DNA of 34,022 bases from a virus. The notes under the pieces were generated by a model, which saw only the letters and a program-made list of their open reading frames with translations, had not been told where the DNA came from and made no database searches. This document shows, piece after piece, positions 8,748 through 8,819 of this stretch. The position numbers and the translations under genes were made by a program. The number at the start of each line of letters is the position of its first letter. Positions within the stretch are counted from its first letter, which is position 1. Where the stretch lies: positions 1-34,022 of IMG/VR virus record IMGVR_UViG_3300025168_000312; one strand, 5' to 3'.

Positions 8748-8819
8748 TTACTTATTCATCACATACATTGTAACTTCAAAGCCAAATCTCATTTCTGTTG
8801 CAATTGGTTTTGTCCACAT
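8748..8819 (-). CDS. pqqA: PqqA-like PQQ precursor peptide (23 aa)
   Basis: A 23-codon gene preceded by AAGGAAATAAGC and ending in TAA. Its product opens M-W-T-K-P and ends [13 protein letters not shown]. The family signature W-x-K-P ... R-x-G-x-E-V-T-x-Y is complete, at the spacing found in bacterial PqqA peptides (22-29 residues). In known PqqA the Glu and Tyr of E-V-T-x-Y, here Glu15 and Tyr19, are cross-linked by the radical SAM enzyme PqqE with PqqD, and become the cofactor pyrroloquinoline quinone. No pqqB, C, D or E gene is in the window, so a host must supply them. It lies between a DUF3310 gene and terS, in the same direction as neighbours. The identification is strong; the role in infection is inference. 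Confidence 0.88.
   Translation of the reverse strand: [23 protein letters not shown]

Follow-up and report, generated by a model that had tools for sequence, protein, structure and literature searches.

A short pqqA gene carried by at least five phage lineages and maintained by selection may supply the consumed substrate of PQQ synthesis in methylotrophs

Results

The pqqA gene and its neighbors

The window, by which we mean the whole 34,022-nucleotide stretch of DNA analyzed here, is a linear IMG/VR virus contig (34 kb) with its main genes on the minus strand. It encodes a terminase and a portal and capsid of the SU10 type, and it further carries nrdJ, a DUF3310 gene, a thymidylate-synthase-like protein, and a glycosyltransferase. 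A gene of only 23 codons lies 53 bases after the DUF3310 gene and 81 bases before a putative small terminase gene (Table 1). A sequence-only reading of the window had assigned this gene to pqqA, which encodes the precursor peptide of the cofactor PQQ, and had named nrdJ and DUF3310 as its neighbors. Its coordinates proved correct and both neighbors were borne out; the strand, which it had left unstated, is the minus strand, and only there does the PqqA peptide appear, the plus-strand reading of the same positions being meaningless.

Table 1. Features at the pqqA locus and elsewhere in the window
Feature	Position	Strand	Basis or remark
Terminase large subunit (terL)	7142..8410	minus	66% identity to annotated terminase of phage Venkman
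Putative terminase small subunit (terS), downstream of pqqA	8394..8666	minus	Inferred from position before terL and sub-threshold DUF5681 match
RNA-like element	8667-8747	minus	Between pqqA and terS, just before terS start
pqqA, 23 codons	8748..8819	minus	PF08042 and TIGR02107 matches; conservation and purifying selection in related phages
pqqA stop codon	8750-8748	minus	
pqqA start codon	8819-8817	minus	
Ribosome-binding site region of pqqA	8820..8835	minus	Sequence: AAAAAGGAAATAAGCT ahead of ATG
Antisense frame over pqqA	8683-8844	plus	53 codons
DUF3310 gene, directly upstream of pqqA	8873..9094	minus	PF11753, 64.5 bits
nrdJ, class II ribonucleotide reductase	9185..11047	minus	Closest named relatives in OM43 phages MEP401/MEP402, 78%
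TET-associated glycosyltransferase adjoining thymidylate-synthase-like gene	16188-17721		PF20691 beside PF00303

We compared the window peptide with two curated models of the family. The Pfam profile PF08042, which the sequence-only reading had put forward as a check, matched at 42.1 bits (cutoff, 21.1; E = 7.8e-11; profile positions 1 to 19 of 19), and the NCBIfam equivalog TIGR02107 matched at 39 bits (cutoff, 20; E = 5e-10; positions 1 to 21 of 21). Both scores are about twice the curated cutoff and cover the whole model. The Glu and Tyr of PqqA are the residues turned into PQQ, and the window peptide holds them at the E-x3-Y spacing (E15-V-T-M-Y19), as had been claimed. The ribosome-binding site that had been judged good is also present, an AAGGA motif ahead of the ATG. 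We conclude that the window peptide belongs to the PqqA family and is full length. PHROGs contains no PqqA family and none that covers the window peptide, and a PDB sequence search with the peptide returned no matching chain.

In agreement with the sequence-only reading, tblastn found no pqqB, pqqC, pqqD, or pqqE in the window. Since its nrdJ is closest to those of MEP401 and MEP402, and since identity to the OM43 phage Venkman is 73% for the portal and 84% for the capsid, the host of the window phage is likely a member of the Methylophilaceae (OM43-like).

pqqA occurs in several unrelated groups of phages

A tblastn search with PqqA over 50,697 phage records matched nine Methylophilales isolate records (Venkman, P19250A, MEP301, MEP401, MEP402, and four of Melnitz), whose peptides are 77 to 96% identical to that of the window, and one further record, a phage assembly from Manatee Spring. 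pqqA is annotated in none of these ten records, and in Melnitz and MW202481 an antisense frame is annotated where it lies. Phage records of other named hosts in this search held no pqqA, save for two mislabeled chromosome pieces. These two, CAKLQF020000010.1 and CAKLQH020000055.1 ("Acinetobacter phage MD-2021a"), have pqqBCDE next to pqqA and were set aside as pieces of host chromosome; the first holds a host-type pqqABCDE operon together with ppk and looks like a bacterial chromosome entered under a phage name. Phages MEP431-434, HIM624-A, and Venkman EXVC038S lie outside this sample, and we do not extend our claim to all methylophages.

At E = 1e-3, P19250A, MEP301, and MEP401 showed no similarity in terminase, portal, or capsid to one another or to the group formed by the window phage and Venkman, and Melnitz is T4-like. 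Thus, at least five phage lineages that are unrelated in these three proteins carry pqqA. When a 461-base region around the window gene was compared with these phages, DNA similarity did not extend beyond a patch of about 90 bases at pqqA itself. Its placement differs among Venkman, P19250A, MEP301, MEP401/402, and Melnitz, and in several of them it lies on the strand opposite both neighbors. The location between DUF3310/nrdJ and terS given by the sequence-only reading therefore holds for the nearest relatives but not for the other lineages, where the gene sits elsewhere.

We also searched IMG/VR with degenerate DNA patterns for pqqA and found at least 120 stretches that carry it. All copies retrieved are intact frames of 23 to 25 codons, AGGA-type sites stand upstream of the viral copies listed, and no viral locus that we read contains pqqBCDE. 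Among the matches listed, 99 of 120 pqqA-bearing loci have proteins in common with the reference phages; the other 21 have none and were left unclassified.

Several of these loci show arrangements of their own. In 33 of 103 viral loci among the matches listed (L002, L003, L010, L014, and 29 others), pqqA alone lies on the strand opposite both neighbors and would therefore need its own promoter there; a scan for the sigma-70 promoter consensus upstream of phage pqqA copies gave a signal not clearly above chance. One phage contig, L349, carries two pqqA genes, at 70-156 (minus) and 4533-4622 (plus), flanking nrdJ. PqqA of the alphaproteobacterial type (GMEVTSY) appeared in only six IMG/VR contigs (L417-L422), which reach 266 kb, are putatively viral, and have no pqqBCDE in the sequence covered.

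Phage pqqA is under purifying selection

To look at retention in a way that was not biased toward pqqA, we used nrdJ as bait in a synteny test. pqqA was present in 20 of 80 loci overall and in 12 of the 13 loci whose nrdJ is at least 80% identical, two of the 12 being copies of the window phage; the thirteenth stops 327 bases past nrdJ and is too short to be informative. Most of the more distant nrdJ relatives had no pqqA within the stretches covered. The same was true of terminase relatives at 60 to 67% identity within the stretches covered, and these count neither for nor against retention.

The sequence-only reading had staked its identification on related phages keeping the frame with Glu15 and Tyr19 and on substitutions favoring synonymous sites, and the nrdJ-syntenic relatives show both. 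Ten distinct alleles from these relatives gave a pN/pS of 0.23 with a pS of 0.53; because pS is this high, the true ratio is probably below 0.23. Among 110 viral alleles in the matches listed, pN/pS was 0.28 in codons not fixed by the search pattern and 0.09 in core codons 9-12, 14, and 18. Arg11 and Phe14 are invariant in these alleles without being enforced by the search; Glu15 and Tyr19 are also invariant, although that search pattern enforced them. Two relaxed scans for copies lacking either residue found zero, versus 101 intact copies in the same frame; the scans skip Asp, Ala, Gly, and Val at position 15 and His, Gln, Asn, Lys, Asp, and Glu at position 19. We conclude that phage pqqA is maintained by purifying selection.

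This selection bears on whether the locus is a gene at all. Unrelated phages that are alike only over the short patch at pqqA could be read as sharing a DNA site for recombining with, or integrating into, one of the numerous pqqA copies of the host. However, selection here acts on protein rather than on DNA (pS of 0.53 to 0.67), and no host allele examined exceeds 85% DNA identity to the window allele. We regard this as the least probable of the explanations considered.

Host genomes multiply pqqA alone

In PQQ synthesis, PqqA is handed by PqqD to PqqE, a radical SAM enzyme that joins its Glu and Tyr, and PqqB and PqqC then complete the molecule. Each PQQ costs one PqqA, whereas the enzymes can be used again. 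We found pqqA in all 122 Methylophilaceae genomes, with 553 copies in total (mean, 4.5; up to 12). pqqE was above the cutoff in 118 of the 122, almost always as a single gene, so the likely hosts do carry one of the pathway genes that the sequence-only reading had suggested looking for. This multiplicity of pqqA beside a single pqqE fits a dosage need for the one component that is consumed. It is also in line with reports of several pqqA copies in a few strains (PMC4109929) and of five copies in a PQQ-producing strain (PMC9851590). As a separate observation, three loci from small-genome marine Methylophilaceae-like bacteria (L141, L144, and L200) carry a pair of pqqA genes separated by about 200 bases, one with Gln4 replacing Lys4.

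Hosts with many near-identical peptides, and a gene this short, raise the potential that the phage copies are recent or misassembled host fragments that have no function in the phage. Yet none of the 122 viral alleles among the matches listed shares its DNA with any of the 122 host alleles, and pqqA stands in isolate genomes and in synteny across diverged phages, with high synonymous divergence and a low pN/pS. The carriage by isolates and the synonymous divergence contradict contamination, a passenger gene, and a DNA site alike, and a host fragment is to our minds highly improbable. GC content at third positions is lower in viral than in host copies. With portal, capsid, and terminase genes in the window and copies in isolates, pqqA here is a metabolic gene of host origin, borne by a true phage and kept by selection, and would class as an auxiliary metabolic gene.

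Discussion

What phage PqqA may do

Our preferred reading, to which we assign a probability of roughly 0.78, is that the window carries a functional phage-borne pqqA that would top up the consumable needed for the host's PQQ-dependent methanol dehydrogenase. Under this model, the phage peptide would be translated during infection and bound by host PqqD, host PqqE would cross-link Glu15 and Tyr19, and the peptide would then be trimmed, with PqqB and PqqC completing PQQ. As host transcription falls, the supply of PqqA would be the first among the components of PQQ synthesis to fail, because one PqqA is spent per PQQ while the enzymes can be reused. The phage would thus need to supply PqqA alone, with the host enzymes persisting, and methanol dehydrogenase, on which the host relies for energy and carbon, would stay activated with PQQ until lysis. 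That the host family itself multiplies pqqA alone argues for such a role in the host pathway, although the same copies mean that one more from a phage may add little.

The sequence-only reading had offered two roles, feeding the host pathway or acting as a decoy. A decoy would occupy host PqqD/PqqE and so reduce PQQ synthesis or divert it; a short peptide resembling the substrate could indeed compete with host PqqA, and the window has no maturation enzyme. A decoy could dispense with the reactive residues, though, and Glu15 and Tyr19 never change in the 110 viral alleles, where the search enforced them, with no loss found in the two relaxed scans; moreover, the phage peptide is one or two residues away from host PqqA. 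With the reactive residues kept, we consider a decoy very unlikely and favor feeding of the host pathway.

It is also possible, if improbable, that PQQ derived from the phage peptide is put to some use apart from methanol oxidation, for example in a different PQQ dehydrogenase or, at lysis, as a reducing cofactor, since several dehydrogenases use PQQ. All of the named carriers infect methylotrophs, however, whose main PQQ user is methanol dehydrogenase, and a T4-like methylophage contig from Lake Baikal encodes methanol dehydrogenase as well as PqqA (PMC7678222). Of the beneficiaries first proposed, methanol dehydrogenase thus stands, while the glucose and alcohol enzymes are less likely, given those hosts.

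Relation to known systems

Whether phage pqqA had been described before was left open in the sequence-only reading. It had: PMC7678222 (2020) reported PqqA in the Lake Baikal contig and proposed a boost to methanol oxidation, so phage-borne PqqA is already known as a kind. According to the same paper, P19250A lacks all of the genes reported there; contrary to this, we find pqqA in P19250A at 28085-28153 on the minus strand. PMC13188868 (2026) lists pqqA among viral phosphorus-cycle genes, and the main text of four OM43 phage papers (PMC8024684, PMC10580990, PMC8163748, and PMC9004378) does not mention phage PQQ genes. In the literature searched, which excluded most subscription journals and all preprints, we found no report of the breadth, repeated acquisition, or constraint of methylophage pqqA.

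The window peptide matches chromosomal PqqA of the Methylophilaceae at 22 of 23 residues, with the same length and the same Glu15 and Tyr19, but it is encoded on a phage, without pqqBCDE, by diverged DNA. The Lake Baikal population (VP_266 in PMC7678222) is likewise phage borne, with the same proposed boost to host PQQ and methanol oxidation; its contig is T4-like with a methanol dehydrogenase gene, whereas the window phage has structural genes of the SU10 type, and no methanol dehydrogenase gene was noticed among its listed frames.

A further parallel is cyanophage psbA, a host-derived phage photosystem gene that takes the place of a rapidly turned-over part of the host's energy metabolism. 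Phage pqqA resembles it in origin and in the kind of component replaced, but PqqA is a peptide consumed as substrate rather than an enzyme or a complex subunit. As an auxiliary gene, pqqA would be of a different sort, supplying a ribosomally made substrate and not a catalyst.

Implications for infection of methylotrophs

Methylotrophs of the OM43 clade are important methanol consumers in coastal water. The presence of pqqA in at least five unrelated groups of methylophages suggests that PQQ supply for methanol oxidation matters during infection. We think it somewhat probable that phages of methylotrophs acquired the gene for this consumed substrate at least five times and have largely kept it, with PqqA supply a general bottleneck of infection, one that would have stayed hidden because gene finders skip a gene of 23 codons. 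Its occurrence in all nine methylophage isolate records found, while missing from annotations and papers, would point to which step of methanol oxidation limits phage production. The idea is directly testable, as cultured phage-host pairs exist, and pqqA would serve as a simple marker of methylotroph phages in metagenomes.

Other features of the window

The gap between pqqA and terS holds an RNA-like element, a hairpin with the loop UUCUCCU, which resembles an anti-Shine-Dalgarno sequence, inside an outer GC-rich stem. It occurs in 10 of 10 nrdJ-syntenic relatives, versus 0 of 32 more distant terminase relatives, and lies between pqqA and terS in L339, L342, L344, L346, L353, L357, L360, L370, and L057. 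The stem sequences vary while pairing is kept. A MAFFT alignment of the element was too poor for its pairs to be counted, and an Rfam search returned no match at E = 1. The element possibly controls terS translation or packaging. Elsewhere in the window, the adjoining glycosyltransferase and thymidylate-synthase-like genes suggest that the window phage may modify its DNA bases.
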